Origin: Pseudomonas sp. B21-028
Lineage (GTDB): Bacteria; Pseudomonadota; Gammaproteobacteria; Pseudomonadales; Pseudomonadaceae
Direction: 5' to 3'
Assembly: GCF_024749045.1 (NCBI RefSeq)
Contig: NZ_CP087184.1
Span: 3,968,001-4,032,000 of the forward strand
Length of the DNA: 64,000 nt
The notes beneath the pieces are model-generated. The model saw only the letters and a program-made list of their open reading frames with translations. It was not told where the DNA came from and did no database searches. Below are positions 1-20,273 of the stretch, piece after piece (position 1 is the stretch's first letter; each line of letters starts with the position of its first letter). Made by a program: the position numbers and the translations under genes.

Positions 1-775
1 CGCTTACAGAGTTATTATTAGAGTCGTAAAACTCGGACTGTTGATCGCCAGGCAATGTTGAGTTCAACTTCGCCATTATGCCTAGAACGAGATTATTTAG
101 GTATCTGGTTTTTCCGACCCCATTCACACCAATGAGACAGTGTATTCTATCTGGTATAGAATCTATCTCGTGATATGGAAATCCTATAGTATGCTTGTTT
201 TGAAAGCCTTGGAGCTTCGTTGAGAAGCTGAATGGAATTTTTGCTTCTTCTTGTGGCTGTCTACGAAATGCTGATTTATAACCAAAACGAAAAGCTTTGT
301 ATGGTCCTAAGTCTCTAAGCACCGCTACGCAAAAGTGCGGCGTTTCAAGAATTTTCTCATATGTGCTAGCGCTGATAATACCAGCACGTGCTATAGCATT
401 GATTTCTTGGATAGCTATGAGGAGGCTTTCAAAATCCTCTCTTGTCATTTTTGAGGCAAGATCGTTATAGCTCTTTTGAATTGCCAATACCAAGACATAA
501 CTGGGAAATATTTTGTTTTGTTCTTTCCATTTCGTTTTATCAGCGTTTGCGTCCCTAAGATATTTTATCCACTCGATTACTGAGGGTTGAGGGGTATCCT
601 CCACGAATGGTAATAGCCTTGCAGGAAAATCTGTATGAACTCCGTTAATTAGGATTCTGATATTCACACGCAACGTATAGCCGAAATCGTTCCACCCCGA
701 TCCAGTCGAGTATATTAAGACTTTTTTTGAGTCATCGAGCAGCGTTGCTTCGTGGTGATAAAAAACTTTCCACAT
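1..775 (-). CDS. AAA/ABC-type ATPase, C-terminus beyond window
   Basis: I translated this leftward frame by hand. It is open from an ATG at 775 to the window edge, about 258 residues. The first ~210 residues are a non-ATPase N-terminal part (starts MWKVFYHHEATLLDDSK) that I do not recognise. A Walker A motif GVNGVGKT follows at about residues 216–223, preceded by CLI as in Rad50/SMC-like and AAA_15/AAA_21 ATPases. The signature, Walker B and any nuclease part would lie outside the window. An AAGGA ribosome-binding site sits about 9 bases before the ATG. Its low G+C and place beside a Hachiman-like pair suggest a defence-island ATPase, but the system cannot be named from this fragment. Confidence 0.75.
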   Translation of the reverse strand, partial: MWKVFYHHEATLLDDSKKVLIYSTGSGWNDFGYTLRVNIRILINGVHTDFPARLLPFVEDTPQPSVIEWIKYLRDANADKTKWKEQNKIFPSYVLVLAIQKSYNDLASKMTREDFESLLIAIQEINAIARAGIISASTYEKILETPHFCVAVLRDLGPYKAFRFGYKSAFRRQPQEEAKIPFSFSTKLQGFQNKHTIGFPYHEIDSIPDRIHCLIGVNGVGKTRYLNNLVLGIMAKLNSTLPGDQQSEFYDSNNNSVS

Positions 776-1483
776 TCATTTAATCCTTGAAAATAAACCT
801 TGAGCGATTCGCTACCTTAAACAGTTAGTAGCTTTTAGCTAAAACGGGTCTTAAATGCGATTATTAAGTAATTGTAATGCACACAATACCCTATTCCCAG
901 ATGCTATCAGAATGATATCTATTGGCGCTAGTGTGCATGTTGTTCGAATTCCCGCTGATCATAGCTAGCATCGCCGATGTTGACACCCGTTTACAGAGGC
1001 CGACTACTTTATATCTAGAGATCGCTGATTTCTGGGAAGGACACAGGGGCTGCGAATCCGAGAAAGTCGGGCCCGCTATGCAAGCGTTCCACTGCATTTC
1101 GTTTATGAACCTCGGCAATTTTATGAAAATCCAAAGGCCGCTGTGGGTCGAACTCTTCCATTGCTCACCGCAAGCTATGGGTCCGGGCCGTGTGAATACG
1201 CAGCAGTGCCTTTAGGGCTTCCAGAAACAGGGCGAAAATTACGCCTGTACGCAAAATCCAGCTCTGCCAATCAGCCAAACATTTACGGATTTCACATAGA
1301 AACGCTCTGTTCAATTCGTCGATGACGTTTTCACACAGCCTGGGTCGATTACGCCCCTCGTGACACCGAGATCGCCCCATAGCTGACGCTCGCAAAGGAC
1401 TGCATTCAGCGAGAATGCTGTAACTCGAAGGTGTCATTGACCGAGGGACTATTCAGTCACTGACGACCCGGAATCCGAACTGG
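776..1483. other. gene-poor spacer, 708 bp
   Basis: The spacer lies between the truncated ATPase and the end of the helicase gene. Several open frames of 60–97 codons exist on both strands, but none shows a recognisable motif, a good ribosome-binding site or a hydrophobic/charged pattern I would trust. I see no tRNA, terminator stem with U-run or insertion-sequence end. Confidence 0.5.
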
Positions 1484-4400
1484 TTAGCTAACTTTGATCT
1501 CTGAGAATACTGTTGGCAATTGTGATAAAGCTTGAGCAAGAGTTTCTGGGTTACTCTTGAGGATTTTGTAATCGATGATATTTGTTCCAGTCATAATTTT
1601 TTGCAGGCTATTTGCAACGAACTTGGATACCTCCCTATCCGCATAGCCTTGGCCGTACAACCAGATGTGGAACTCATCTGAAAGACCAAGCTTGAGCTGA
1701 TTTTGAAGCGTTCGTGCATTGGCTAAGACCGCATTATTGAGAGATCTGCCCTCTATTATATCTGCGAGGCTACCTATTATTAGCATTCCATCATAAGAAA
1801 GTGCTGAGCAGAAGTCCACAATATGCTCTTGAGTAATCCGATAAAGTCTTGATTTAGCCTGGACTTTAGTCCCATTATTTTTTGCATACGTAAAAATGGC
1901 ATGATAGCTTTCCCCCTTGCACCACAATTTTGCGATTTCTCCACTCTTGTCATTGGGGCGGATATTGCAAACTATCTTTGCGTTGGAAAACTTGTCTATT
2001 AACGGCCAGCAAACATCAAGTAACTCTAGTGGTGAATCACAAAACTCCAGTTCCCATAGGTTATCATCAATCCACTGCTCGATAAAAACTAGCTGATCCA
2101 GGCCGAGTAGGGTTCTTCCATAATACGAGAACTTTTCTGGCGGTAGAGATTGAAGTCGCATATGAATAATTGAAAAAATCTCCAATAACCGTGCCCTTTC
2201 GCTACCTTCCGCCAAATAATAAGCTAGAGTATCTTCAGCCAAGCTTAAAAAAGCTTCGAGCTGGAGTAACGAGCTGTTATCTTTTAACAATGAGAGAAAG
2301 TAGCTCTCAATCGCATTAAGCGTTTGCTCCTTATAGTCCATTTCCGCCAGAAGATCGGTAACATCAATATTGTTATTTGCCCCCCATTGTACCCATTGAG
2401 ATCGGCGAGCAGCAGGTCGTTGAATGAAATTCAAGAGGTCATCAGTTGCGTGCTCAAATCTAAACGGAGCTATAATTTCACTCAGGCTACTTATGCAGGC
2501 TTCCGAATTATTGAAATCCAATAATTTCAGAGTTCTAATCCACCTAGGCCGACCCTGCCACGAATGGCGCTTATCATAAATCTTAGGGTCGGTGAAAATT
2601 ATACTTCCTTCTGTGTGATAACCAGACCGCCCGGCTCTCCCGATCAGATTTTGAAATTCTCTCGTAGAAATCCTGCGCCCTGCTTGCATGGTGCTTGATA
2701 CAAGCAAATACTTAATTGGAAGGTTCACCCCTTGCGCCAGAGTAGACGTGCAGACCACTAAATGCGCTGCCTTTCTGTCCATTGCCCATTCGACTGAAAT
2801 TCGTAGGCCGTTTGGGACTGCTGAGCTATGAGGTAATACGCCTAGCGGGATAGCTTTAGAAAAAATATGATTTTCCGAGAAGTGTAGATTGGATAAAAAA
2901 GTGATTTTCGACAGTTCGCGACGATCCGACATATCGCTCGGTTTTGGAGTCGACAGTCCACGTTCATAAACGTCCACAATTGTTGTGCAGAGGGTAGTTA
3001 TTGACCTCTTATCACCGCAAAATATAGCGACAGGACCTTGTCGGCAGAGTTTAAGGCCTAAGTAGCAGGAGATCGTATGTGTTTTATCTTTGACGGGGAA
3101 TATTACATCACCGTTTTCTCCCTCTCTGCGGCCAAGGTTTACCTGCTGAATTATCTGCGGGACATACAATCCGCTGTCAAACTTATTATCTCTCCCTAGA
3201 TAGCTCAACTGCCCCATCCCGGTAACCCAACTGAGGAATGCGACGCTTTTAATAGAATGCAACCAATTACTACCTTGGATGTGTTCGCCTGATTCGCCAT
3301 TGAGCCACTCGCCAATGGTTTTTGCGTTAGACATCACAGCAGAAATCAAAACTTTCTGGGCATCCTTCGGAACTGAATCTTTAAGCGATGCGATAAGAAG
3401 CTCGTAGGTTACTCCACGTTTCCCACTATCAAATTGATGCCCCTCATCGAAAATTAGCAAGTTGATTTTTTCTGCCAATGCTGGTTCATGACGGAGCAAA
3501 TAAACCAGCTTCTCAGGTGTAGAGACGATTATGGTATGGTCGTATTTCCCCTTGTAGGCTTCTCCTAACAGAAACTTCAGAAACTCCTGTTCATCTTCAT
3601 CAACGTTCGTGATGTCTCGAAGCTCGTTAACGTTGACTGAATCGTGTTCGAAGGACTGTAAAAAGCCATAGGTGATTTCTCGGCATAACGCTCTAAATGG
3701 TGCTACTACAACCGCAAGCTTTGCCCTCCCGGAAAGAAATGCACTTCGAATAATAAGCTCAGCTGATTTTGTTTTCCCGGCACTGGTAGGCATCTGCATC
3801 ACAGCGGACACACCTTTCAAAACGCCTAGCTCGCCTACGAGTCTCTGACCAGGCCAAAACTCTTTCATAAAGCGGTCGTTGGAAAGAGCAGGTTTCCATT
3901 GATCCAAGCTGAGACCAGTATATTTCGGAAGGCAAACGAGTGAAGAGTTATGCATCTTCCGCTTAACCAATGCCATAATGGTATCAGCAATTAATATCTC
4001 GCGATCTGTACCATTGGAGTAGATCAAGTTTCGAAAACCGAACAGTTCCTCTTCCACATCCCACGCGTCGGCCTCCATGTTTATAAACGCTCGGTAGGCT
4101 AACGCGGTGCTTTGTATCTGATCGTTATATCGACCGGTTGGACTCAGGGTGAAATTTTTGCTTAAATCCGATCTTAAAATCCATACTAGAAACCGTTCTA
4201 ATTTGCTATCTGTTAAATGGCACGGCGAATCAGAAATGGAACGAGCCAACACTAATGAACTTCCAGGCATGTCAGCGAGGTAATATGACGCGGAGCTTAG
4301 AATCCTTAAATACTCGTCTGTCTCAGGTGTCAATCTCGCGGTGCTCATAGACTCAAAAAATTGACCAGCTAATACCAACTGCTCTTTTAGAATATCTCTG

Positions 4401-4618
4401 TAGTCGTGCCGGTCGTCATGCTCCCTAGACTCCGAAGCTGCTAACTCACCAAGAATGCCCACAGTAAATACTAAAAGTCGTTTCGGATCCTGAGGAAGGT
4501 CAATATGAAACTGTTCCTCGATACCAAACTCGTACTGCTTCGCTTTGGCGCGGGTGACGTCAAGGATAACTCGTGCTTTGACCTCAAGCCTCATCTGCTG
4601 CTCTCCGATAAAGCTCAT
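1484..4618 (-). CDS. hamB: Ski2-like superfamily 2 helicase, HamB-like (Hachiman defence)
   Basis: A 1044-residue helicase. Visible motifs are: I, PTSAGKT (277–283); II, DEGH (391–394); III, SAVM (426–429); V, STLAQGVNLP (625–634); VI, QNLIGRAGR (656–664). The Q…GRAGR motif and DExH box place it with Ski2/Hel308-type helicases. About 260 unfamiliar residues precede the helicase core and about 370 follow it. It starts inside the end of the upstream nuclease-like gene (35-base overlap), so the two are translated together. In Hachiman, HamB is the helicase that holds the HamA nuclease in check until phage-altered DNA is sensed. The pair order (small nuclease first, helicase second) fits. The protein is longer than the classic HamB proteins, so a Hachiman subtype or a close relative is possible. 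Confidence 0.72.
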   Translation of the reverse strand: MSFIGEQQMRLEVKARVILDVTRAKAKQYEFGIEEQFHIDLPQDPKRLLVFTVGILGELAASESREHDDRHDYRDILKEQLVLAGQFFESMSTARLTPETDEYLRILSSASYYLADMPGSSLVLARSISDSPCHLTDSKLERFLVWILRSDLSKNFTLSPTGRYNDQIQSTALAYRAFINMEADAWDVEEELFGFRNLIYSNGTDREILIADTIMALVKRKMHNSSLVCLPKYTGLSLDQWKPALSNDRFMKEFWPGQRLVGELGVLKGVSAVMQMPTSAGKTKSAELIIRSAFLSGRAKLAVVVAPFRALCREITYGFLQSFEHDSVNVNELRDITNVDEDEQEFLKFLLGEAYKGKYDHTIIVSTPEKLVYLLRHEPALAEKINLLIFDEGHQFDSGKRGVTYELLIASLKDSVPKDAQKVLISAVMSNAKTIGEWLNGESGEHIQGSNWLHSIKSVAFLSWVTGMGQLSYLGRDNKFDSGLYVPQIIQQVNLGRREGENGDVIFPVKDKTHTISCYLGLKLCRQGPVAIFCGDKRSITTLCTTIVDVYERGLSTPKPSDMSDRRELSKITFLSNLHFSENHIFSKAIPLGVLPHSSAVPNGLRISVEWAMDRKAAHLVVCTSTLAQGVNLPIKYLLVSSTMQAGRRISTREFQNLIGRAGRSGYHTEGSIIFTDPKIYDKRHSWQGRPRWIRTLKLLDFNNSEACISSLSEIIAPFRFEHATDDLLNFIQRPAARRSQWVQWGANNNIDVTDLLAEMDYKEQTLNAIESYFLSLLKDNSSLLQLEAFLSLAEDTLAYYLAEGSERARLLEIFSIIHMRLQSLPPEKFSYYGRTLLGLDQLVFIEQWIDDNLWELEFCDSPLELLDVCWPLIDKFSNAKIVCNIRPNDKSGEIAKLWCKGESYHAIFTYAKNNGTKVQAKSRLYRITQEHIVDFCSALSYDGMLIIGSLADIIEGRSLNNAVLANARTLQNQLKLGLSDEFHIWLYGQGYADREVSKFVANSLQKIMTGTNIIDYKILKSNPETLAQALSQLPTVFSEIKVS

Positions 4619-5609
4619 GTATTAGCGTCATCAGCTGGGTGCCACTTATAATGAGAAGCTCCAGTTTATCTGCGTTTGGATGGTTACTGGTGGCTGAATT
4701 GGTCACCACTGTTTCGTGCATTGAGGATTCTGTATAGACTGCCGCGGCGCCATACCGCCGCTTGCACGGGTGATCCGGTTCTCTTTGGAATCTATCTACG
4801 ATTTGTAGTCCATCCCAGTCCTTTCTGTCGTACAGTTTTTGCCTCATGGCATTTAACGACTCTGCAATTCGAATCTCATCTTTCACAGAATGATCGATTG
4901 CATCTTGGAGGACATTAGCCTTCGCCGACTCACTTGCTTTAGCTTTTACTTCAAAGATCAGCATTTCGTCATTATCGCTAATAACATCTGGTATTTTTTT
5001 GAAAGCAATAACGTCAGAGCCTTTGGTTGATTCGCTTGCAATCCCCTTACGATCATACCGAGTTCTAGGGATCTGATAGTTCCGTATAAACTGTAGATAG
5101 TCTGCTACCAAAATCTCCGCGAAATCACCTGCCCTTATGCTCGGCCCAGGAGCAATCGAAACATGAGGAAACTTTTCGGTGAGCAAGTATTCAGAATTTG
5201 TTTTTAAAGGATTTTTCAGGAACTGAAGCTCGTCGTCCTGACAGTAATGGTTCCTGAAATGCTTCGCCCATGCCGACATGATTTCGTGGTTCAAGGCATC
5301 ATGTTCAAGCTTGAAAGTCGGGATCGGTTTGCCACACGCAGATGTTAATGTACCGACTTGTTTGAGCCAGGCAAGATGGGTGGCCTCTAACGTCATTTCA
5401 CATCCTATGTGCATACAGACAGATTGGCGAATTGCTGTCCCTAAGACGCCCCCTGCGAGGCAGCGGTAAGCATATGAGCCCTCCCAATCATGCCTCAGGA
5501 GGTCTTTCATTGCTAGGAGCTGATCCACGCTTCGACTCACCGAATAGGACGGTTCGAAGTAGGTCGTTGGGTTATGCTGGTCAGTCTGAGATCGGCAGAC
5601 GACGACCAA
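4584..5609 (-). CDS. hamA: HamA/DUF1837-like nuclease (Hachiman defence)
   Basis: About 341 residues. The central part follows the HamA (DUF1837) pattern: R-x-GDFAEILVADYL (159–172), then KGSDV with D199, then the strand IFEVKAK with E220-x-K222, followed by a helix containing DAIDHS. This is a D…ExK nuclease arrangement. In characterised Hachiman the ExK residues of HamA degrade DNA once HamB releases it. The gene overlaps the downstream helicase by 35 bases, so co-translation is expected. The start is uncertain: 5609 is a TTG without a clear ribosome-binding site, and an in-frame ATG at 5510 would remove 33 residues. The C-terminal ~80 residues are unremarkable. Confidence 0.65.
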   Translation of the reverse strand: MVVVCRSQTDQHNPTTYFEPSYSVSRSVDQLLAMKDLLRHDWEGSYAYRCLAGGVLGTAIRQSVCMHIGCEMTLEATHLAWLKQVGTLTSACGKPIPTFKLEHDALNHEIMSAWAKHFRNHYCQDDELQFLKNPLKTNSEYLLTEKFPHVSIAPGPSIRAGDFAEILVADYLQFIRNYQIPRTRYDRKGIASESTKGSDVIAFKKIPDVISDNDEMLIFEVKAKASESAKANVLQDAIDHSVKDEIRIAESLNAMRQKLYDRKDWDGLQIVDRFQREPDHPCKRRYGAAAVYTESSMHETVVTNSATSNHPNADKLELLIISGTQLMTLIHELYRRAADEA

Positions 5610-5873: not shown

Positions 5874-8800
5874 TTAAGAAACTATCCCTCCTGAGCCGGC
5901 AGGGAGACGCGGTCGAAGATCAAGCACCTTAATCAGTAACCGGAGACTGTTGCCCATTTCGCTGACAACTCTAGAAGCTTCGGATTCAAGCAGTTCTCGC
6001 AGCCCCTTAACGCCAATTAATTCGCCAGTTTCCGGATGCTCCCATCTGCGTTCGCTCGCGACAGTCACGAGAAGACAGCCGGAACGGCAGCTCTCAGCCG
6101 CCATGTATCGATTAACGAGTTGGTTTTTTATCGTGTCACGCAGTACACGACCTGACCAATTTTCGCCAAGCTTGAGTTCAACCGTGGCTTGCTGCCCCGA
6201 CTGCGCTCGCATGCGGATGTCCGTTTCCTTTTCGTCAGCAGTGACCGCTTCTTGGTCGACCGTGTAGACATGATTGGATGCGCCCCGTAACACCCTAGCA
6301 ATCTCACGGCGCATCACTTTTTCCTCACGGATCAAAACCCAAGCATCGCGTGGCGTGACATCCTGAAGCATCAAATCATCGAGATCCTCGAACCGGTCGA
6401 CAAGTACGGCGAACATGTCGTCGCTGGTGGTCGGTGGTGCCTCACCGTATCTATTGAGAATCGCCACCTCTGACTCGTTGAGCACCGCACCATCAACTTC
6501 TTCAGCCGATTTTTCGCGAGCAAGGAGCGCGAGACGATCACGAAAATGGGCAAATAATGGATCTTCAAGCATCTCCAGTTTGACCCTCCATGCCTCATCA
6601 CCTTGAATATCGAGAATTGCAGTGAGGAGCGCATTTCGTGCGTTTTGCGCCTCGTCTCTAGGACCAGGTGAATAGGTCCCCACATGAGTAATGTCGTCGC
6701 AAGGACGAACATACTGATATGCAAGTCGGAGGAGCCTGAGGAGCAACTGGGGGGTGAAGCCAGATGTCCGTAAATCGACCCGCAGGGTAGAGAAGCGGTC
6801 TCCAAACAAGGTACTGAAAGCGTTGATAGCGAAACCAGTTGGCATGGGCTCAAGCGGAGCCAGCAATAGCTCCAACGCTTCCACCCCAGCCACGGGATCA
6901 AGACGCATCAATGTAGTGAGCCAAACCTGGGTAAATGGCCCGTTGTCGGAAACGGTCAGTTGATTCACAGCCAATGTGCGAATCCTGTTATGCACTGCTT
7001 CTCCGCCGTGCAGGAGGAGAATTTTTAATACTCGCTCAAGTCGACCTAGCGCGGCTTCCACGTCTTCGGTATGACAAGGATTGTCGACATAAGCATCAAG
7101 CCAAGTGATCAAACGAGGCACGAACAATTGCGCGACAACATCCGAAGCATAGCCCACGTCCTGAAGTAGCATGACGAACGAATTCGTCTTAGCGACTTCA
7201 TTGAGTTCAGCAGACAAGTCGGGACCAAGTGTCTCTTCGACCGCAGCGGGAAACTCCCGCGCGAGGGACTCAAACCATGCTGGAAAACCGCTGCACTCAA
7301 TTCGCGCGTAGCGTGTGGCTAATTTAGCCTCATCGACGGAAAGTTTTCGCACCCAATCAGGGTCTTCAGCTTCGGCGGCTATCGCAGCCAATCCGAGCTG
7401 CCATTTAATAAGAAATGTACCTTTCTTGTCCGCAGGTCTCTCGTAACGAAGTGTCGGATGATCCCCGCGCCACATAGAGCGCATGCTGTCACGCAGTCGT
7501 TCGGCGGTCTCTTTACCAAAGTGGTCCTCGATAAAACGACGATCCCAACCGGAGGCACGGCTTTTGTTTCCGGAACGTTGCATTGCCTGCCACAAATTCC
7601 AAGCAGTATTGCCTTCGCGTTCGGGTTTGAAGGCGTCCTCAGGACGTTCGGCAACCTCACACCAGAATGCCACCCAAGCTGCATGCTGCGCTGCTTGACG
7701 CTCTTCCGCGGCTTTGCGTTGCAGATCTCTGCGTGCCTCTATCGCGACCATCTTCGGATCGATCTCCGCCGGAGCGAGAAACAGGTCGATCATGGCGATC
7801 AGCACAGGCTCATCGGCAACATACTGCTTCAGTCCTTCGATATGATTTCGAGAATCGCCGGCACCATCCCACATGCCACGCATTGAGGCATGGAGCATCA
7901 TTGCGCGCTCAGGCAACGGGCGATTACAGTCAGCCAAAACGCGGCGAACCCAAGCTGCATCTTGTTCGTAATTTAAATGGAGGGGACCGTTGAATGAAGC
8001 ATGAAAAAAACGCTCCCAGGAGTCCGCTCTCGGGTGCAAGCTTTCATTGAACTTATCGTCAGCCCAGAAAATCGCCTCGCGCTGCATTGCGCCCAATTCC
8101 GCAAGCGCTTTTCGTAGGCTCTCCATTGGCTCGTCGTGGCTATGATCATTAGGCTGGAGACGCAACGCAATCGTCGAAGAGCGGAGAACTTCTAACCGAA
8201 AATCGTCCCCGCGAATAAGCTTTAAGCAAACCGCAGCAAGCATCGATATCAAATGTGAACGCTTACTGACGAGATGCGGCCACTCACTCACCCAAGCCAA
8301 CTCCTCTGTGACCAGGTCGGTCAAACCTTCGCGCAACGTCTCCAAAAAACCTGGAGGGAACTCAAGTTCTGCAATGCTGTACGGTAGCGACCACTCTTGC
8401 TCAAAATCCGTACTTGATGACTCTGAAAGGCCCCTCAAGATTCCACAGAGTCGATCAGGCGTAAAAAACAGAGGGAGCAATCGAACGACCGCTCCACGAA
8501 CCACGGAATCAGGCCAGGGGGCTTGCGCCTCCACCATCGACTGTGTGAGTAACTCGACCCGAGAGTCGCCAAGACGAGCAAGTGCCGTAATCGAATCTAG
8601 ACGCTCCCCCTCCCTAGCTGATTCATCGAGTGCGACTGAATAAGCAATATCTGCACACGCTGGCATTGGCCCTGCGCCAATTAGATCGAGCAATAGCTCA
8701 CGGACTTCCTGATTCTCAATGCCCTCCCCCCACAGCTGTAAAACTTGTTCCTCCAAGTCAGGTGTAGCAAAACGATGGATCTGTACCTGCGGAGCTTGCA

Positions 8801-10217
8801 GCCCACGCCATCCTCCAGATCCGTAATGCCTCACATAGGCTCGCAATGCGTCCTGGCGCTGAGAAAGCGTGAGCGATTCTGGGTCAGCGTGGTCCAGTAG
8901 GACGTTGGGCTCGCGATCACGAACTTCGGAAAAAATAGTAGGCTGTGATGCAGCTAGCCATGCGGCGACCGGGCGCATAGTCGGCCGAATGACCTTATCG
9001 TTTTGTTGAGTCTCAGCGAAGAGCAGTCGCTTCACCGCCTTGATCGGCATGCCCTGGCTCAATCGATGGTCAAGATACTGTGCCGCAAGAAATTCAAGTA
9101 CCGAGCGGTGATGGAATCGGACTCGCCCGTAACTCGCAAATCCGAACAAAGCACGCTCCAGCAATGTCTCTCGTTCCTGCGGTGTCCAATCATGTAGCAG
9201 CACTTCGGGATCTAGCGCTCCACCAGGCTCACCGCCACGATCTGCTTCCACACTGAGGCGTATAGTCAACTTCCGGGTGAGCAGCGCAGCGAGCGCAAGC
9301 CGGCTTGCGCCCTCTAATGCTTTGTCGGGTGAGAGTTGTGCGGGCTCACCACGATCAGAACGCGGCTTGAGCTTGACGCGGATATTGTGCTCCACCTGCT
9401 CTCGATGGGTGCGAATGCGGCGGTGCTCGCGCCAATCAGAGCAAAGCTCGACAAGGTCTTGCGGTCGCCGCGCAAAATCTTCAGCGTTCCGCTTCCGTAT
9501 ATCCGCAAGTAAGGCATCAGCATCGTCGACACCCTCAATGACCGCCATGTCTCTAATCTGCCGGTCGGACAACGGCATTAACGCGACGTTACGCCATACC
9601 GGAGGTACGTCCTCCTTCTTCGCGGAATCACGCCGCACACGCCCTGTCGCGATGTCTGCAAAATCATCCCTGCTTGGTGCCAGTTCAATCTGAACCGGCA
9701 CTGGTAAATGGCGCTGGATCAGTGTCTGATCTACAGCGATTGGACGGGTTGTTATTACGATGCGCACCCTTCCGAGCTGACTGCCAATGGCCTTACCCAA
9801 ACGCTTCAGAGCCCCCTCAAAAGAACCGAGGGTCAGCTTTAACTCATCAACCGAGTCTAGAAAAAACGTGGCGATTTCGGATTGAGAAGCCAGCCAAGCC
9901 TCAAACCGCTCCTCTTCTTCTCGTGACAATAGGTCCAGTAGGTTGGTTGTTGCGAGCTGCGATAGCTCCAGAAAAAACGCAGGCTCGCCTTGGTCCCACA
10001 ATGCTTGCTGCTGTGTTTGACACTCATAAGTTTTTCCGGCGCCGGCTTCCGAAACGATCAGAATACGCTGCGACTCAAGCAGCGCTTCCCAGCCAACATC
10101 TTTTGCCCAACCCAATCGCGACAGCAGTGATGCCTGGTCAATGTCCGCGATCTCTTCCTGAGATAAATTGCGGAAGGTACGCTGAATACGTTGGTTGGTT
10201 TTTTGTAGTGATTGCAT
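5874..10217 (-). CDS. NACHT-type STAND NTPase with C-terminal PD-(D/E)xK-like nuclease domain
   Basis: A 1447-residue protein. An NTPase domain lies almost at the N-terminus, with Walker A EAGAGKT (57–63) and Walker B FFLDSVDEL (118–126). The second acidic pair after a small residue is typical of NACHT domains. A very long helical middle (about 300–1250) resembles the sensor repeats of STAND proteins. Near the C-terminus, ETDIR (D1333) is followed by VELKLGENW (E1347-x-K1349) and a helix with Q, a D…ExK pattern of restriction-like nucleases. I infer a sensor–switch–nuclease design as in bacterial NLR-like antiphage proteins, but with the nuclease at the C-terminus rather than the N-terminus as in Avs proteins. 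It lies 135 bp downstream of the KAP NTPase on the same strand, probably in one operon. Confidence 0.75.
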   Translation of the reverse strand: MQSLQKTNQRIQRTFRNLSQEEIADIDQASLLSRLGWAKDVGWEALLESQRILIVSEAGAGKTYECQTQQQALWDQGEPAFFLELSQLATTNLLDLLSREEEERFEAWLASQSEIATFFLDSVDELKLTLGSFEGALKRLGKAIGSQLGRVRIVITTRPIAVDQTLIQRHLPVPVQIELAPSRDDFADIATGRVRRDSAKKEDVPPVWRNVALMPLSDRQIRDMAVIEGVDDADALLADIRKRNAEDFARRPQDLVELCSDWREHRRIRTHREQVEHNIRVKLKPRSDRGEPAQLSPDKALEGASRLALAALLTRKLTIRLSVEADRGGEPGGALDPEVLLHDWTPQERETLLERALFGFASYGRVRFHHRSVLEFLAAQYLDHRLSQGMPIKAVKRLLFAETQQNDKVIRPTMRPVAAWLAASQPTIFSEVRDREPNVLLDHADPESLTLSQRQDALRAYVRHYGSGGWRGLQAPQVQIHRFATPDLEEQVLQLWGEGIENQEVRELLLDLIGAGPMPACADIAYSVALDESAREGERLDSITALARLGDSRVELLTQSMVEAQAPWPDSVVRGAVVRLLPLFFTPDRLCGILRGLSESSSTDFEQEWSLPYSIAELEFPPGFLETLREGLTDLVTEELAWVSEWPHLVSKRSHLISMLAAVCLKLIRGDDFRLEVLRSSTIALRLQPNDHSHDEPMESLRKALAELGAMQREAIFWADDKFNESLHPRADSWERFFHASFNGPLHLNYEQDAAWVRRVLADCNRPLPERAMMLHASMRGMWDGAGDSRNHIEGLKQYVADEPVLIAMIDLFLAPAEIDPKMVAIEARRDLQRKAAEERQAAQHAAWVAFWCEVAERPEDAFKPEREGNTAWNLWQAMQRSGNKSRASGWDRRFIEDHFGKETAERLRDSMRSMWRGDHPTLRYERPADKKGTFLIKWQLGLAAIAAEAEDPDWVRKLSVDEAKLATRYARIECSGFPAWFESLAREFPAAVEETLGPDLSAELNEVAKTNSFVMLLQDVGYASDVVAQLFVPRLITWLDAYVDNPCHTEDVEAALGRLERVLKILLLHGGEAVHNRIRTLAVNQLTVSDNGPFTQVWLTTLMRLDPVAGVEALELLLAPLEPMPTGFAINAFSTLFGDRFSTLRVDLRTSGFTPQLLLRLLRLAYQYVRPCDDITHVGTYSPGPRDEAQNARNALLTAILDIQGDEAWRVKLEMLEDPLFAHFRDRLALLAREKSAEEVDGAVLNESEVAILNRYGEAPPTTSDDMFAVLVDRFEDLDDLMLQDVTPRDAWVLIREEKVMRREIARVLRGASNHVYTVDQEAVTADEKETDIRMRAQSGQQATVELKLGENWSGRVLRDTIKNQLVNRYMAAESCRSGCLLVTVASERRWEHPETGELIGVKGLRELLESEASRVVSEMGNSLRLLIKVLDLRPRLPAGSGGIVS

Positions 10218-10352
10218 CAGCGACCTATATCCATATCAGTTTTACGCATGGGTGCCAAAGCGAAGGAGGCTTGCAACGAGGAGGAGTCTATATACGGACA
10301 GTTAATCAGACCTTCGTCACGAGTCTCTCATCTCCGTTTCCGGTGAGTTCTC

Positions 10353-12599
10353 TTACCCAGCATCCTCGTCGGGCTGGAGTTGTTGCTCGGCCAAAGCACT
10401 TCGGTGGAGGAAAACAAACTGGTGAGCAGTCATTCGCGCAGAGGTCCCCTCTTGGTGATACTGCGGGTCATCCAGCTCGGCTCCATAGCGGGAGCGCAGG
10501 TTCGCGGCGATGTAGTCCGGTGAAATCAATAAAGAAATATCGTCGTAGGTGTTGCGTCGAAGATCTGATCGAACCGGTAGACCGCTCTCTAGCTCCCACC
10601 CCTCCCCAATATAGGTGTCTAGGAAGTCATCCATGCAGGCTGGGTTAGCATCAAATAGTGCCCGTAGATTCGCTTCCACCTCCTCCTGATTTCGACCTTT
10701 CTGCCAGTACCAATACAGATGCGGCGCATCGCGCCCTGCCTTAACAAAAAGTGGCTCAACAGCGTTTGCCTCCCGGACGCGGTCGGCAAACAATCTGTAG
10801 ATAATGTCATTCGCCTCGTCTGGAAGTACTCGATGTTGCTCCTGTCTATCAGACGAATGCGTAAGCCAGCGAACGCATTCAATCCCCATTTCTAAAGGCG
10901 ACGCTGCCAGGACAGCCGCTTCGGCAGCAGCTTGCCTCTCTGGTAGCGGAATACGCCTCAAAAGTTGGGAGATAAGTATTCCAGCCTGCATCATCGTGCC
11001 ACCAAGTACATATGGTCCACGCTCACGGGGAAGTAGATCCCCATTTCTTGCAACGGCGACTGCAATCTGCAATGCAGAGGCCTCGTCCAGAAAATCCGCG
11101 CGATTTCGCAACGCCTGGATCAACTGCGGCATAGTCCGCTTGGAATACGTACTCAGAAGAATACGCTGTGCGTCCGGAGCGGCTGCGACGAGAGCTTCTG
11201 TCAAGACAGTCAGTTGACTATCCGCTATATCCCCTTCGGGTACTCCGTAAACGAAATAGCGCTTAAAGTATCGACCAGAGCAGATACGTTGCTCTCTAGC
11301 CCATTTTTCCTCCCATTCCCCCCCGTACATCATGTTGCCAATTCGAGGAAATAACGGTTTCAACAGTCCTTCTCGTACCTGCTCACGCTCTTCTGGAGTG
11401 GACGCAGGCATCGCGATTTCAAGAAGCCTGTTAAGAGGCGAAGACGGCCGCTCCAGGCCTCTTGGAGCCTCACGAGGCTCCCCTTTCAGGAATAGGTCGG
11501 GATTGTCACGAATAGCCGAATAGAGTTTTGGGTACAACACCCGCAGCCCCTCAATGAGCATGAATTCGGCAATGTTCACTTCGCCGTTCACAAGAGGTAA
11601 CGCGAACATCAGCGCATTTGTGTAAAGCTTCGCAACCCTTGGGGTCTCTAGCTTCGATTCAAGTCCGTCCACAAAATAACGCGAGAACACGTCGACCTGG
11701 CGCTGGTCTAGAACAATGCCTGCTTGGCCCAGAGCATGATCGACACCTTCAAAAGTGATCTGACGCAGACTCATCCGGTCGGCGGGCGGCAGATGCAAAG
11801 GCACTTGGATGATCTTTTCAAGAAACGCACGCCCGGCTTCTTGCCCACCAGCACCGTATCGTTCACCTAATGCGGCGGCGACCACATCGTCGTCGAAAGC
11901 CAATACATAGCAGGTGTACTTAAAACTTGCCGAGAGCTTTACCAGCTTGAAGATGGCATTTGTTTCGTCTCTATCTAACCGGTCAATGTCATCGATAAGG
12001 ATGACCAGCCTTTTTCCACTCTGGCCTAGTAGAACGTCAATCTGGTCTTTGAGTTGTTCGAGACTGACCTTGGATAAGGACTCACCGATATTCTTCGCAG
12101 CTTCGCCGGGATTGATTTCTACGCCCGGTAGAGCGACTGAGAGGACAGATAAAATACCGCCGTAGGATTCAAGCAGTGCTGCCGCTTTTTCTTTGAAGGC
12201 CGGCTCCTTACCTAGGGCCTCTGCCAGGGTGGCGAAAAATCCACGCAGGAGCGCATCCTCAGAAGGGAAATGCCAAGGGTTGAATCGTATCGTGATGACT
12301 TGCTCATATTGATCAAGCGACTCTTCCATCATTTTGAGGACGGAAGTCTTGCCATCGCCCCACGGGCCGAATAGGCCAATGACGATACTGGATGGATCGC
12401 GACGCTTGGCTATCGTCTCGGCAATCCGCGCGGCGAATAACGCTCGTCCGAACCGGTCGTGGGCTTTAGACGCGATGGGCTCATCCGAGAAATATTGATT
12501 GCCCTCTTGATCATGTTCTGATTTCTGAGTCCCGGGGTCATTAGCCGATGATGTCGAATTTGGCGTTTGACGGTCAAAAAGCTTGCGAATCCATTTCAT
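10353..12599 (-). CDS. KAP family P-loop NTPase
   Basis: A 748-residue protein with the full KAP set: Walker A GPWGDGKT (78–85), FNPWH (106–110), Walker B LVILIDDIDRLD (198–209), and EKIIQVPLHLPP (261–272). KAP NTPases are common in antiphage loci, including as the ATPase RdrA of RADAR, and often assemble into rings. No convincing transmembrane segment splits the Walker motifs, so I expect a soluble form. The C-terminal ~400 residues are not recognised. The gene begins the leftward KAP–NACHT pair and is separated by 426 bp from a divergent pair of nuclease-like genes, so the four may be controlled together. No deaminase partner is present, which argues against RADAR. Confidence 0.85.
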   Translation of the reverse strand: MKWIRKLFDRQTPNSTSSANDPGTQKSEHDQEGNQYFSDEPIASKAHDRFGRALFAARIAETIAKRRDPSSIVIGLFGPWGDGKTSVLKMMEESLDQYEQVITIRFNPWHFPSEDALLRGFFATLAEALGKEPAFKEKAAALLESYGGILSVLSVALPGVEINPGEAAKNIGESLSKVSLEQLKDQIDVLLGQSGKRLVILIDDIDRLDRDETNAIFKLVKLSASFKYTCYVLAFDDDVVAAALGERYGAGGQEAGRAFLEKIIQVPLHLPPADRMSLRQITFEGVDHALGQAGIVLDQRQVDVFSRYFVDGLESKLETPRVAKLYTNALMFALPLVNGEVNIAEFMLIEGLRVLYPKLYSAIRDNPDLFLKGEPREAPRGLERPSSPLNRLLEIAMPASTPEEREQVREGLLKPLFPRIGNMMYGGEWEEKWAREQRICSGRYFKRYFVYGVPEGDIADSQLTVLTEALVAAAPDAQRILLSTYSKRTMPQLIQALRNRADFLDEASALQIAVAVARNGDLLPRERGPYVLGGTMMQAGILISQLLRRIPLPERQAAAEAAVLAASPLEMGIECVRWLTHSSDRQEQHRVLPDEANDIIYRLFADRVREANAVEPLFVKAGRDAPHLYWYWQKGRNQEEVEANLRALFDANPACMDDFLDTYIGEGWELESGLPVRSDLRRNTYDDISLLISPDYIAANLRSRYGAELDDPQYHQEGTSARMTAHQFVFLHRSALAEQQLQPDEDAG

Positions 12600-13025
12600 T
12601 GCCTTCCCCTTAACGCTCCTCGGGTTTGTGTACGTTATCGCGGACAGGTGAGGCAGTAACCGAGCGCTAGAAATAACTCAGGATGTATTCGACTGTCCAT
12701 GCTGCTATTGTCAACCACAGCCACCTGACGTGGTTTCGACCGGTGCGGGCCGAGAGTAGGAGCGATGCGTCCAACGCTTTTGGCTATCGGATAGTGGCCG
12801 ATCGCATCCGCCGATGTTGCACCAACTGACTTCAATGTACTGTCGACCTTGAGGCACCGCGCGGTTTGTTCTAGCCAAAACTTGGCGCAACAGCTGTAGC
12901 AAGCGACCGAACAATTGGCACTTATGCGTAAAACTGATCGCTTACATTGCGATCAATTATTTTTAGCACCTCCAGATGAACTCTGCATGGATCGAGGCTT
13001 CAACAACGTCAGGGAATAAGATGTT
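12600..13025. promoter_or_regulatory. divergent intergenic region between KAP and SEC-C genes
   Basis: This 426 bp gap must hold promoters for both the leftward KAP/NACHT pair and the rightward nuclease-like pair. It contains small open frames on the minus strand without recognisable content. A perfect inverted repeat lies at 12935–12955, about 70 bases before the rightward start. I cannot assign −10/−35 boxes with confidence. Confidence 0.5.
12935..12955. repeat. perfect 7-bp inverted repeat upstream of SEC-C gene
   Basis: The arms TGATCGC and GCGATCA flank a 7-base spacer. The position suits an operator for a dimeric regulator or a small leader hairpin. No regulator gene is visible next to it. 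Confidence 0.4.
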
Positions 13026-15359
13026 ATGAACAAAGAAAACTTAAAAGAGGTCAATGTTTTCCTGTTGAAGGGTATGGAAGCTACTGCCGCCCGCATGCGC
13101 GAACTGATTGTCGCCATGCCTCCGCACGATCTACTCGGATACATCTATGCCCAGCACGTAATGAAAGCGATGGCAGATCAAAGTGTCACTCAGGTGGGGC
13201 AGGAGGCGGACGCCCCAGCTGATCTGATCAACGAAAATCAGTTCCTGCTGGAGTACGTACATGCGGTTCTCGCTTCAGACGTCTCCCCTCCGGACGTAAA
13301 ATTCGACGAAGCCAAGTGCGCCTTGCTGTTTGAACTTAGCCGAAAATTACGAGAGCAGGCCATGTTATTCGCCATGGCCTCGTCCGTCGGGACCAAAGAC
13401 GGCGTCTTTGGTCCCGACACGGCCGACATTGAATTTCGTGCGAAATCCACGTGGGTCATGCTACGAGGGAACCGCTACCAAGTCTTAGAAGGTGAGTTCT
13501 ATCGCTACGTTTTGGCGCCTCACGATGATGTCCTGAAAGAAGTGTACGATGTTAGTTCCGCCGATATCGCGGAAGGTTTCCAGGCCATGGCCGACGCCAC
13601 GCGAACAGGGCATGCCAACGCAATCACTGTGATGATGAACCAATTTGAGGCAGCACACGCCTTCGCTGCGGCAAAAGGCAAGCCACTGGAAAACGTCATG
13701 GAAGCGTGGGTTGCGGCCAATATGGAACAAACGGAAGCAGCCAGGCGGGCAATCGATGACATGTTTCGGGGTGGTATAGCCAACGTAAGCCTACACACGA
13801 AGCTGCCGCAGACGCTGCTAGCGGACTTGGCGTACCAGCGCGGAGAAGAAACCGAGTTCTTCGCAGCAGGTGATTTCGCGGGGACACCCTACCGGACACT
13901 ACCCGCCCGGAAGAAACCACTAATTCAGCTTGGTTCAGACTACTACGCCGTTGATCCATGCTTCACCCGTGATGCGGGATATCGCGCGCTTCTCTATAAC
14001 CTTCTTCAGCGAAAACCTGACTACAAGAAGATCTTTGAAAGTCGGCAGAAGACGATGAGCGAAGCTGCCTTCGCCGATGTCCTGGCCACTCAGCTACCCG
14101 GCGCCGCAGTTTTTCAGGAGGTCTACTACAAAGACCCTGCTACCAAAAAGTGGTCCGAAAATGACACCCTCATCCTGATGGATGACGTGCTGTTCTTGGT
14201 TGAAGCCAAGGCTGGCGCGGCCGCGACTATCGCATCGCCAGCACTTGATTTCGGTCGCCACGCCCAGTCGGTTCAGGATTTGGTACTCAAGGCCTACAAG
14301 CAATGTGAGCGCTTTTTCAATTATCTTAATTCTGCGGATGAAGTGCCGCTTTACCACTTGGTGGACGGCAAATACGAAAAGTGCGGGTGTGTCCGCCGCT
14401 CCGACTACCGCGTGATGGTGCCGATTGGGCTCACGGTCGAGTCGTTCTCTCCCTTCTCGGCATACTGCAAGGAACTGCCGCAGATTGAGCCGTTACTTGG
14501 GAAGCATGCCTTCGTTTCGTTGTCCATTGATGACTTATTCGTGCTCAAGCGCTTTCTGCCCACCCCCGGCGAGTTCTCTCACTACATGGAGGTGCGGCAG
14601 GCCGTGGCGGGGAAACGCCAAGCTCATCTCTTCGATGAGTTCGACCACCTGGGTGCGTACCTGAAGATAAACCGTTTCGATCAGACTATTGCCGACCAGT
14701 TAAAGGGGGGTAAGTCGAAAATGCTTATCTGGGACGGCATGAGCGACATCGTCGACAAGAGCTTTGTGGGTGAAAGTTGGGAAGGCACGCCGTATCCAAC
14801 GCAGGACTTCCCGAAGGAGGTGCTGAAGCTGCTTGAAGCGCTTGACGCCAGCCGAGCACGTGGATGGCTTTCAGCGGAGAGTCATATCCGTGATTTAGGA
14901 GAGGAAAATCGAAATAATCTGGCAAAGATGCTATTCGACCTACGCCAAACCCTGAACCAGCACCCCGCTCGTTGCTTTCTAGTATCCGAGGGCGGCGAGC
15001 CGATATTCATTTGGCTACAATTACACGACCATCAAATTAATTGGACTAAGGCAAATGACAAGGCCAGAGCAGCTGCGTTGGCAGTCAAGGCCTCTAACAT
15101 CATCGGCATCGTCGCGGAGGTTAGTACCGATGGAATCTATCGCCGGGCGCATTCTTTCAAGGTCCACATACCGATAGAGCGAACGGAAGAAAACACCCAT
15201 ATTTACGAAGACGCCGAGCGAATGGCTCAATCCACGCAGCCGGTAAACCTCAGTCAACCGAAAAATGTTATCCCTGTCTTGAAAATTAAAAAAACGGGGC
15301 GAAATGATCAGTGTCCGTGCGGCAGTGGTGCAAAATTTAAAAAGTGTCACGGCCTTTAA
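13026..15359 (+). CDS. SEC-C motif protein with putative PD-(D/E)xK nuclease core
   Basis: A 777-residue protein with two recognisable parts. In the middle, VFQEVYY (E366), ENDTLILMDD (D380) and LFLVEAKAG (E393-x-K395) form the E…D…ExK order of restriction-like nucleases, with strand-like hydrophobic stretches around the D and the ExK. At the extreme C-terminus, residues 758–777 form a SEC-C zinc motif with C763, C765, C774 and H775 (RNDQCPCGSG…KKCHG). The N-terminal 350 residues are unfamiliar. The start ATG at 13026 follows an AGGGA box. The next gene begins 61 bases downstream on the same strand and is also nuclease-like, so they probably form an operon. Role in defence is inferred from content and neighbours; no substrate can be deduced. 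Confidence 0.7.
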   Translation: MNKENLKEVNVFLLKGMEATAARMRELIVAMPPHDLLGYIYAQHVMKAMADQSVTQVGQEADAPADLINENQFLLEYVHAVLASDVSPPDVKFDEAKCALLFELSRKLREQAMLFAMASSVGTKDGVFGPDTADIEFRAKSTWVMLRGNRYQVLEGEFYRYVLAPHDDVLKEVYDVSSADIAEGFQAMADATRTGHANAITVMMNQFEAAHAFAAAKGKPLENVMEAWVAANMEQTEAARRAIDDMFRGGIANVSLHTKLPQTLLADLAYQRGEETEFFAAGDFAGTPYRTLPARKKPLIQLGSDYYAVDPCFTRDAGYRALLYNLLQRKPDYKKIFESRQKTMSEAAFADVLATQLPGAAVFQEVYYKDPATKKWSENDTLILMDDVLFLVEAKAGAAATIASPALDFGRHAQSVQDLVLKAYKQCERFFNYLNSADEVPLYHLVDGKYEKCGCVRRSDYRVMVPIGLTVESFSPFSAYCKELPQIEPLLGKHAFVSLSIDDLFVLKRFLPTPGEFSHYMEVRQAVAGKRQAHLFDEFDHLGAYLKINRFDQTIADQLKGGKSKMLIWDGMSDIVDKSFVGESWEGTPYPTQDFPKEVLKLLEALDASRARGWLSAESHIRDLGEENRNNLAKMLFDLRQTLNQHPARCFLVSEGGEPIFIWLQLHDHQINWTKANDKARAAALAVKASNIIGIVAEVSTDGIYRRAHSFKVHIPIERTEENTHIYEDAERMAQSTQPVNLSQPKNVIPVLKIKKTGRNDQCPCGSGAKFKKCHGL

Positions 15360-15420
15360 AAAAATTCCACCCGCTTACACTCGCCGTATTCTCAAAGACT
15401 TTCAGACAACAGGTGTGTGC

Positions 15421-16569
15421 ATGACAAAATTGAAAACGTATGCTGCCTTAGTAGACGACATTTTCGGCCCCGGAACAGCAACCTTCAAAACAGAATCAAC
15501 CACATCCAACGATGTCGTGGGGGCGATTGCAAGCACGACGGATTTCGAGGTCTTTAGGAAAAACTTCGAAGAACGTCTTCGCAGGCTCCAGGGCGCAATT
15601 CAGTTAAATCAGAAAATTTCCTTTCCTATAATCAACGCGGTAAATGGTGTCGCCAAACTTGGTGGCTGGGAAGGCTACTATGCAGAGTTAGTAGCTCTAG
15701 ATTACTTCCTGAGTGACGCAGAAACTGGGCCTGGAGAAATCGAGCTAGACGTCACAGTTCCCGCGTTGGACGCTATCGCATCCGAATTTAAAATGCAGAA
15801 CATTAATTATGACCTCTGTATTCCTTCCTTAGGCATTGTCACCGATGTCAAGATTCTTTCTGACAAAAGCGGTGGAATTCTAGACGGAATTTTCAAAGAA
15901 TTTCGTTCCGTCAAAGGAATAACGCACCTCACGATTCAGCCTGAGTACTCCGAGGACGAAGATTACGATGTCTTTCAAGGCCACCGCAGCAGTCTATTGA
16001 AGGAACTTATTGAAGAAATCGACACCACGGCCAGACCGCCTTATTTTCGTAGCAAGGTTATCGAGGGTCTTTCCTATCGATTTGCGTGGGAAGCGGGTGT
16101 AGTCATTGCTGAAAGTAGTTACGACTCCAAAACACACGCGTCTAACCATCAGCGCTTGCTCGTTACACACGCAAAAAAGTTTTCACGAAGAGAACCTACA
16201 ATAATTATCTTTGTTGTCTTCCCATGGGCTAGTGAAAGAATAATGTTATTTAGCGAAATGAGGATTGCTCAAGAATTCATCCATAATCTTGGCTCTATAT
16301 TTTTTGATATAACCGGGCCCTCTACTGTTGAAGCCCGAAGCATCAACAAGAATATAAAAACTAGCATCAGCCTTGCTGACGTATCTCGTCATCTGTCCGG
16401 CATTTTGCTGATCGAGGACAAAAGTATATTGGCTAGCGATGATGATCTCATTGCAGATGCGAGTTACATTTTTAACGAAAATGCGGTACACACACTCAAT
16501 GGGAGTAAATTAGAGAGCTACTTGAAACGAAGGAATGCGACAAACCTGATCAATTTCCTCAAAACTTGA
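15421..16569 (+). CDS. hypothetical protein with possible restriction-like nuclease fold
   Basis: 382 residues from the ATG at 15421. The frame is open further upstream but would overlap the previous gene. I recognise no named family. A possible PD-(D/E)xK core is visible: WEGYYAELVALDYF (E89) on a helix, NYDLCIPS (D131) and IVTDVKILSDK (D142-x-K144), the E…D…(D/E)xK order with a strand before the last lysine. The C-terminal half is mixed alpha/beta with no motif. The gene follows the SEC-C gene by 61 bases and ends the rightward pair. It could also be a non-catalytic partner of that protein. Base composition is lower in G+C than the core. Confidence 0.65.
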   Translation: MTKLKTYAALVDDIFGPGTATFKTESTTSNDVVGAIASTTDFEVFRKNFEERLRRLQGAIQLNQKISFPIINAVNGVAKLGGWEGYYAELVALDYFLSDAETGPGEIELDVTVPALDAIASEFKMQNINYDLCIPSLGIVTDVKILSDKSGGILDGIFKEFRSVKGITHLTIQPEYSEDEDYDVFQGHRSSLLKELIEEIDTTARPPYFRSKVIEGLSYRFAWEAGVVIAESSYDSKTHASNHQRLLVTHAKKFSRREPTIIIFVVFPWASERIMLFSEMRIAQEFIHNLGSIFFDITGPSTVEARSINKNIKTSISLADVSRHLSGILLIEDKSILASDDDLIADASYIFNENAVHTLNGSKLESYLKRRNATNLINFLKT

Positions 16570-17036: not shown

Positions 17037-18062
17037 CTACCGGCAGCCAGACCTTGACAGGGCGTCCATCACCTTTCCTATCGCACGCTCGCTTTCGTGA
17101 CCGTCTGATGATGGGGTCAAGAAACGGCCGGGAGGAAAAATCGCGCTGATCCATCCTTCAGGAATGCTTTGTAGCTGATTGAACAATTCGAATTCCTCTA
17201 GGAAAACCTCATAGATAATTTCATCCGTTTCCGAACCTAAGTCGTCATGCAGATACGCACGGGGCAATTCCACTTTGGAGATTGTTCCCTCTCCGCAGGT
17301 AATTTGGCTGAAGCTACTCATTATTGAACCGCCACCACCTGGGTAGTCGTAGTGTGTTGATAGGGGCTTCAGCCCCCACAGCAAACCGCCTGACGGCAGT
17401 GGCACTGTATCGGCAAGCACAAGGTATGATCCCATGCTCGTATCACAGACTCCGGCGATGTTGCCGTTCAGTTTTAAGCGCTCCAGCTCTTGGGCTATCT
17501 TCGGGTGAACTACCTTCAAGCTGGCTCTCAGTCCTTCCAGCTGTGTCCGTCGATACGCAATGAATTCCACCTCACGCTCAATGCGGCGCGCCTCCTTTTC
17601 CTTCTTGAGTTGCTCACGTGAAATCATAGTTTGCGAAGGCTCAAGCTGCCTTTCGATCAGCGCGGCTAGCTCCCATCCACTGACCGTTTCGTGTGGATGT
17701 AGGTCCTGGTTATCTTTGAGGTATTGCAGCAAGCGCGGCCAGCAACTGGTGCTGAACCATTCGCTTGCGCCGTCTGCGCTCCCTCCACTGGCGACCACTG
17801 CAAGAGGATCAACGCTAGCAAGACGAAATGTGCGGTGTAGGATTTTTTCTAAGATGTATGCATCGGTTTCAGATGCCAGGCGAAGGCCAAGCGATTGTGG
17901 AAAATCAATGGATTCCCACCGGAAACTCCGGGCTCTGGCGAGGATATTGTTCGCTTTGCCAATCTTGAATCGAGGGTGTTTTAGGTCTCGCAGAATGTAA
18001 ACGTGGGAAGCCAAGTGCCGATCCTCGTGACTAGACCAAAGGGCCTTATTCGTAGATTCCAT
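17037..18062 (-). CDS. GIY-YIG/T5orf172-type putative nuclease
   Basis: A 341-residue protein with an N-terminal domain of the T5orf172/Mug113 branch of the GIY-YIG superfamily. HVYILRD (20–26) is followed by FKIGKANNILARARSF, then ETDAYILEKILHRTF with a conserved E and H, then a SEWF block typical of this branch. A charged helical segment rich in KEKEARRIEREVE follows at about residues 155–170, then about 170 unfamiliar residues. GIY-YIG proteins of this kind occur in phages and defence loci and can cut DNA. The start overlaps the end of the upstream Sel1 lipoprotein gene by 17 bases, which ties the two together. Confidence 0.7.
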   Translation of the reverse strand: MESTNKALWSSHEDRHLASHVYILRDLKHPRFKIGKANNILARARSFRWESIDFPQSLGLRLASETDAYILEKILHRTFRLASVDPLAVVASGGSADGASEWFSTSCWPRLLQYLKDNQDLHPHETVSGWELAALIERQLEPSQTMISREQLKKEKEARRIEREVEFIAYRRTQLEGLRASLKVVHPKIAQELERLKLNGNIAGVCDTSMGSYLVLADTVPLPSGGLLWGLKPLSTHYDYPGGGGSIMSSFSQITCGEGTISKVELPRAYLHDDLGSETDEIIYEVFLEEFELFNQLQSIPEGWISAIFPPGRFLTPSSDGHESERAIGKVMDALSRSGCR

Positions 18063-19732: not shown

Positions 19733-20185
19733 TCAGCCCTGCTTGTAACCCCGCACCTCATCCACCCCACGATTGGCCAACTGGTCGGCCCGTTCGTTGC
19801 CGTGATGGCCGATGTGTCCGCGCACCCACTTCCAGGTCACGTTATGGCGGCTGACCTGTTCGTCCAGCAGCTTCCAGAGGTCGGCGTTCTTGACCGGTTC
19901 CTTCGCGGCCGTCTTCCAGCCGCGCTTCTTCCAGTTGGCCATCCACTCGTTGATGCCCTTCATCACGTACTGCGAGTCGGTCACCAGCAGCACGTCGCAG
20001 GGGCGCTTGAGCTCTTCCAGGCCGCGAATGGCGCCCATCAGTTCCATGCGGTTGTTGGTGGTATTGGCTTCGCCCCCCCAGAGTTCCTTCTCTACGCCCT
20101 TGAAGACCAACAGCGCGCCCCAGCCGCCCGGACCGGGGTTGCCCTTGCAGGCGCCGTCAGTGAAGAGTTCTACGCTATCGCTCAT
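19733..20185 (-). CDS. rnhA: ribonuclease HI
   Basis: 150 residues from the ATG at 20185; two further ATGs lie just upstream. RNase HI cleaves the RNA strand of RNA–DNA hybrids, removing R-loops and primer RNA. The family landmarks are visible: [16 protein letters not shown] with the first catalytic aspartate, [10 protein letters not shown] with the catalytic glutamate, [13 protein letters not shown] with the second aspartate, and [19 protein letters not shown] with the conserved histidine and last aspartate. Length is normal. It sits downstream of a methyltransferase gene, as in other pseudomonads. Its usual partner dnaQ is missing on the downstream side, where the accessory island begins. 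Confidence 0.97.
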
Positions 20186-20273
20186 GCCCATCCATCCAGA
20201 AAAAATGCAAAGGCCTGCCAGGCGGGACCGCCAACCTCCAGGTTGACGATGCCGGGCAGGCCATCAGAAACGG

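Follow-up and report, generated by a model that had tools for sequence, protein, structure and literature searches.

PifA of the F plasmid, which excludes phage T7, is associated with the membrane according to a review (PMC9311878), and its abortive mechanism responds to gp1.2 and gp10 of T7. For Pseudomonas, PMC12629846 reports that the hotspots of genomic islands hold exchangeable modules. Another named family is "antiphage HyoA" (NCBIfam NF058534). No founding paper for HyoA was found in the literature searched, and the portion of the DefensePredictor paper that was examined contains no mention of Hyo, Eru, KAP, or SEC-C. Here we describe four adjacent genes of Pseudomonas sp. B21-028 that encode a HyoA protein, a PifA-like KAP NTPase, and two nuclease-like proteins. 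They lie in a 64,000-nucleotide stretch (referred to as the window) of a 6.49-Mb chromosome (NZ_CP087184.1, positions 3,968,001 to 4,032,000). Because each of the four genes occurs elsewhere without the other three, the locus is very probably a defence island of stacked, separate modules, each likely an anti-phage module in its own right, and not one machine.

The two genes running to the left encode HyoA (5874..10217, minus strand), a 1447-residue NACHT-type NTPase with a C-terminal nuclease-like site (D1333...E1347xK1349), and the KAP P-loop NTPase of 748 residues (10353..12599, minus strand; PF07693, 2.6e-48), with 135 bp between them. The two running to the right encode a SEC-C protein of 777 residues (13026..15359, plus strand) and a 382-residue protein without a family model (15421..16569, plus strand). 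The SEC-C protein is made up of a helical N-terminal part, a predicted PD-(D/E)xK (NERD-like) domain at about residues 345-509, and a SEC-C zinc motif at residues 759-776. The KAP and SEC-C genes diverge from an intergenic region of 426 bp (12600..13025). All four open reading frames (ORFs) were verified at these coordinates, so that the layout drawn in an earlier note on this DNA, two genes to the left and two to the right of the gap, is borne out. What is observed directly is which genes are present, which families they match, which residues are conserved, that the genes occur independently in the examined loci, and that a block, described below, is shared.

Loci carrying each gene were fetched and searched with the window proteins (tblastn, 1e-3; 1e-5 for the Alcanivorax sp. 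DSM 26293 locus L056 and for L079). Five HyoA loci with flanks of 7-8 kb (L073-L077), on four plasmids fetched from 45 plasmid records with a match and in the family genome G159, have none of the other three genes, nor does any of them lie beside the lower-scoring HyoA relative of genome G127 (L079). In a sixth HyoA locus, L056, a SEC-C gene is 6.5 kb away. None of the other genes of the cluster is present in three of the four further KAP loci (genomes G267 and G948 and an X. citri plasmid, fetched from 19 plasmid records with a match); the fourth is that of P. frederiksbergensis (L040), where SEC-C is adjacent. Neither of the two further loci of the 382-residue gene (genomes G555 and G033) contains any of the other three. 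SEC-C was followed in 33 loci of named genome records, with at least 3 kb upstream in 27, at least 1.5 kb downstream in 30, and both in 24, nine being cut by a contig end on one side. Among these 33 loci, the 382-residue gene is found in none, a KAP orthologue in one, and a HyoA relative, not adjacent, in one. A 35-residue match of the last gene in L040 falls in the extension before its conserved start (M40) and overlaps the end of the SEC-C gene, and was not counted. Four further plasmid stretches with SEC-C (of nine records matched), considered by annotation only, name no KAP or NACHT gene. Any one family of SEC-C neighbours recurs in at most six of 36 loci (ORFs of at least 80 residues within 7 kb, BLASTP 1e-8).

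Among the loci examined, none besides the window's own holds three or four of the genes. This count speaks against the single four-gene system suggested in the earlier note, which had itself named independent occurrence as grounds for giving up such a system. The two pairs that the note implied, KAP with NACHT and SEC-C with the last gene, are likewise seen in no other locus examined, and the pair that does recur, KAP with SEC-C, cuts across them.

KAP with SEC-C is the only pair seen adjacent again, in one of the 33 SEC-C loci. The block made up of KAP, the gap, and SEC-C (10295..15362) is shared with P. frederiksbergensis 38F7 at 90.5-93.2% DNA identity, in two pieces (93.2% over 2414 positions and 90.5% over 2578). 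The intergenic region is similar in the two genomes except for about 74 bp absent from P. frederiksbergensis. The similarity ends on both sides just outside the stop codons of KAP and SEC-C, and the next large ORF beyond KAP in P. frederiksbergensis is a dCTPase-type defence gene (561 bits), not HyoA. As judged from sequence, this block and the independent loci show the pattern of exchangeable modules.

Several observations weigh against fully separate modules. A second genome also carries KAP beside SEC-C, and in the clusters at 100% identity the two proteins have the same longest contig (8530 bases). In Rhizobium multihospitium (L060) a distant KAP NTPase (26% identical) is located about 1.9 kb upstream of SEC-C, with one ORF between, and in the Alcanivorax locus a single island contains both SEC-C and, at a distance of 6.5 kb, a 47% identical HyoA relative. 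A 24-bp element stands upstream of both HyoA and SEC-C. The contexts are also few for KAP (four) and the 382-residue gene (two), nine SEC-C loci out of 33 are truncated on one side, the comparison of SEC-C neighbours given below is a rough one, and the anti-phage role proposed for the SEC-C and 382-residue genes is drawn from their company and predicted fold.

Since a second genome has both genes and the same longest contig is listed for both, KAP and SEC-C may work together, as a two-gene divergent system in which the NTPase would sense or license and the nuclease would cut, HyoA and the last gene being bystanders. The nearby distant KAP of Rhizobium and the 5-kb block, ending just outside both genes, agree with such a system. 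We consider it rather unlikely, however, since 32 of the 33 SEC-C loci show no KAP orthologue (upstream sequence of 3 kb or more being available for 27 of the 33) and SEC-C is absent near KAP in three of the four other KAP loci. The high identity of the block, moreover, suggests a single recent transfer instead of repeated co-selection.

It may also be asked whether the SEC-C and 382-residue proteins are nucleases of DNA repair or of mobile-element maintenance, carried by the island as cargo and not for defence. None of the searched libraries has a specific model for either protein, integrases are found among the neighbours of SEC-C (four of 62), and a relative of the last gene is on an apparent small plasmid, all of which would fit. 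The company of SEC-C argues otherwise. Its 62 hand-picked nearest ORFs match 144 PADLOC models at 1e-10 (including PD-T7-1, Avs2, AbiEi, Old, PtuA, and AriA), against three models for 33 mechanically called core ORFs of the window; models and not members are counted, in sets of unequal size, and therefore enrichment is shown only roughly. The patchy distribution of both genes (3 of 198 genomes for SEC-C, 3 of 398 for the 382-residue gene) is also unlike that of housekeeping repair genes. A role in repair or maintenance thus appears improbable.

The 24-bp element mentioned above is the core of an inverted repeat. Its left arm is at 10235..10277 (plus strand), with the core at 10235-10258, which corresponds to positions -18 to -41 relative to the start codon of HyoA; its right arm is at 12896..12938 (minus strand), with the core at 12915-12938, or -88 to -111 relative to that of SEC-C. 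The arms are 43 nucleotides long and 74% complementary, and the core is perfect with two free positions. As the element has the same orientation to HyoA and to SEC-C, KAP is flanked by the inverted repeat. These are the only two copies in the chromosome at up to three mismatches, so that a dispersed chromosome repeat is ruled out. None is found in 37 other relatives (up to two mismatches) or in viral contigs, and the 81-101 bp around the element have no match in 94 other relatives or in plasmids. The stretch of about 74 bp that P. frederiksbergensis lacks is the one holding the SEC-C copy. The 24-bp sequence may serve both genes as an operator or may be a scar that some element left behind, and HyoA and SEC-C may be under joint control by means of it. 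Promoter-like sites do not exceed chance (6 against 5.5 expected). Between the element and the SEC-C start, at 12935-12955 (plus strand), is a hairpin that resembles a terminator and leads into T-rich sequence; sites of this kind number 12 where 7.3 are expected, and the hairpin may be due to chance. One four-gene system under joint control, for which the tight packing and the element common to the HyoA and SEC-C upstream regions would speak, is highly improbable, given that no second such locus is seen among those examined and that the last gene is missing from all 33 SEC-C loci.

Under the reading of separate modules, each gene can be considered by itself. We infer the activities and triggers of all four products, and their anti-phage function, from the features that follow. 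The HyoA product scores 1534.8 bits against NF058534 (cut-off 1200) over residues 11-1437. Its Pfam NACHT match, 19.6 bits, is under the gathering score of 26.7; it is NCBIfam that names the whole protein. EruA was considered and rejected, at 138.9 bits against the NCBIfam cut-off of 1000. The Walker-type motifs, judged by eye, are conserved in a six-sequence alignment, and D1333, E1347, and K1349 are invariant in the six proteins, with identity down to 27%. HyoA is above the cut-off in two of 198 family genomes (own genome included) and in none of 14 control genomes, and between the window protein and the copy in G159, which scores higher, identity is just 27-31%. Because NCBIfam already has the name antiphage HyoA, the NACHT protein is not undescribed, contrary to what the earlier note had supposed of the system; by its sequence it is a member of this family, and the antiphage label is NCBIfam's name. 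The protein would detect a phage product, with the NACHT NTPase serving for assembly and the C-terminal D...ExK domain for cleavage of nucleic acid.

The KAP protein matches the PADLOC PifA model (PDLC02361) with 228.8 bits over residues 34-648, covering profile positions 3-651 of 720; no curated cut-off is shown for this model. It was also compared with QatA of the Qat system, which was rejected (86.6 bits, NCBIfam cut-off 600). KAP occurs in two of 293 genomes of the order at 1e-60 and in two of 369 of the class at 1e-100, its own genome counted. It may act as a PifA-like NTPase of exclusion or abortive infection.

In the 777-residue protein the SEC-C motif (PF02810) is the sole Pfam match, and the matches in PADLOC, NCBIfam, and PHROGs are confined to it. 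D380, E393, and K395 are invariant in 13 sequences with identity down to 23%; E365 is present in 12 of them, the exception being the most distant, and in 33 of 33 of a closer set. This most nearly concerns a further claim of the earlier note: the D/E/K residues it proposed as nuclease sites are conserved in relatives of all three proteins, while its E366 of the SEC-C protein is really E365. Pfam returns no NERD match for the window protein at E 0.1. A relative from Lactococcus (23% identical in the alignment, 27% by tblastn) passes Pfam NERD with 24.1 bits (cut-off 22.1), and another relative has a sub-threshold NERD match. A preprint on the YprA helicase mentions NERD and neither SEC-C nor KAP. 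Sequence search of the PDB with the SEC-C protein returns only SEC-C-motif proteins and chance-level rows, and there is no usable PDB relative for HyoA, KAP, or the 382-residue protein. A Foldseek search finds nothing at 0.001 for the models of the SEC-C and 382-residue proteins.

Scoring of 7997 candidates from the protein database gives at least 1068 relatives for the SEC-C family. The 120 relatives listed are 78-100% identical, and Pseudomonas, Burkholderia, Rhizobium, and Trichlorobacter are among the sources named. Conservation this even in hosts so far apart suggests a recent spread. The full-length gene is found in three of 198 family genomes (own genome counted). Among viral contigs, where close relatives only were sought, SEC-C is present in two loci, and HyoA, KAP, and the 382-residue gene are absent; phage records have no SEC-C match at 1e-10. 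The SEC-C protein would be a single-chain PD-(D/E)xK nuclease, with the zinc knuckle likely aiding the binding of nucleic acid or of a partner. We put forward, tentatively, the possibility that it represents an undescribed family of stand-alone anti-phage nucleases, with a helical sensor half, a NERD-type PD-(D/E)xK domain, and a zinc knuckle, which spreads nearly unchanged between classes of proteobacteria and which is here paired with a PifA-like KAP and shares the upstream control element of HyoA, the modules firing together.

The last gene lies in an ORF spanning 15304-16569 (plus strand), whose conserved protein of 382 residues starts at M40 (15421); residues 1-40 of the ORF are poorly modelled by AlphaFold2 (predicted local distance difference test, pLDDT, 88.3 for the model). 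E128, D170, D181, and K183 (E89, D131, D142, and K144 in the 382-residue numbering) are invariant in 42 sequences. In the model these residues occur in a PD-(D/E)xK-like order, helix(E128)-strand-strand(D170)-strand(D181xK183)-helix-strand, and the protein is a second predicted nuclease. It has no match in Pfam, PADLOC, or PHROGs, and its only NCBIfam match, Brig1, is far sub-threshold (13.3 bits, cut-off 230). There are 85 relatives in the protein database (7996 candidates scored), and the gene is present in three of 398 genomes (own genome counted). Comparison of the profiles of the SEC-C and 382-residue families finds no relationship (probability 0.2%), so that duplication does not seem to be the origin of the two nuclease-like genes. 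On present sequence evidence, both families are new in that Pfam, NCBIfam, PADLOC, and PHROGs contain no specific model for either. In genome G033 the relative of the 382-residue protein is split across both ends of contig 153 (L091; 18,077 bp), beside ParA-like and relaxase-like ORFs identified by eye, and this contig looks like a small circular plasmid.

Directly to the left of HyoA, on the same strand, is a Hachiman system that was overlooked in the earlier note. HamB, the helicase (1484..4618, minus strand; PADLOC HamB 1218 bits), and HamA, the nuclease (4584..5609, minus strand; PADLOC HamA 346.6 bits, PF08878), are side by side. The ORF of HamA opens with TTG, and because the profile match begins only at residue 73 the true start is probably further in. 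Farther to the left is the candidate system PDC-M01AB, also overlooked. Its PDC-M01A and PDC-M01B candidates, an AAA ATPase (569 residues) and a 282-residue protein, are at window 2-775 and L102:222-2776 (PADLOC 218.6 and 94.5 bits). A 177-bp stretch at window 1174-1350 recurs about 3.3 kb to the left (L080:17863-18039) with 90% identity, and the two copies flank the PDC-M01AB genes, one on each side. Between the 382-residue gene and an rnhA-like gene (19733-20191, named by eye), a 341-residue protein with a T5orf172/MUG113 domain is encoded at window 17037-18062 (minus strand); it has no PADLOC match. Guanine-cytosine content is 0.43-0.55 over the window's first 20 kb, against 0.59-0.69 in the remainder, as expected for an island. 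No Rfam match is found in window 1-20500, and no plasmid matches the DNA of the region. The earlier note's view that the NTPases and nuclease-like proteins, with their conserved D/E/K residues, stand in a defence setting is supported.

This locus illustrates that defence modules independent of one another may, when stacked in an island, be read as one system, the counts favouring their separateness. Two nuclease-like families that lack a specific model also emerge, the SEC-C family being the one with at least 1068 relatives; both can be tested gene by gene. A further result is a candidate control element common to two defence genes.

Among the closest known systems is HyoA: the window protein has the whole-length match to NF058534 and the conserved D...ExK site, and no tested feature sets it apart. 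PifA, in the exclusion of T7 by the F plasmid, resembles the KAP protein in being a KAP NTPase of similar length whose model is matched over most of it. Unlike the membrane-associated PifA, the window KAP has no clear transmembrane stretch (the highest 19-residue Kyte-Doolittle mean is 1.64, at residue 139). For the SEC-C protein, the Upx defence protein (PDB 9wuf) can be taken as a lead only, with a root-mean-square deviation of 11.4, 9% identity, a pLDDT of only 67 for the SEC-C model, and no PADLOC Upx match at E 0.1. The NERD-type PD-(D/E)xK nucleases are linked to it by the Lactococcus relative that passes the Pfam model, and the window protein differs from them in its additional SEC-C zinc motif and in having an N-terminal part that is helical.

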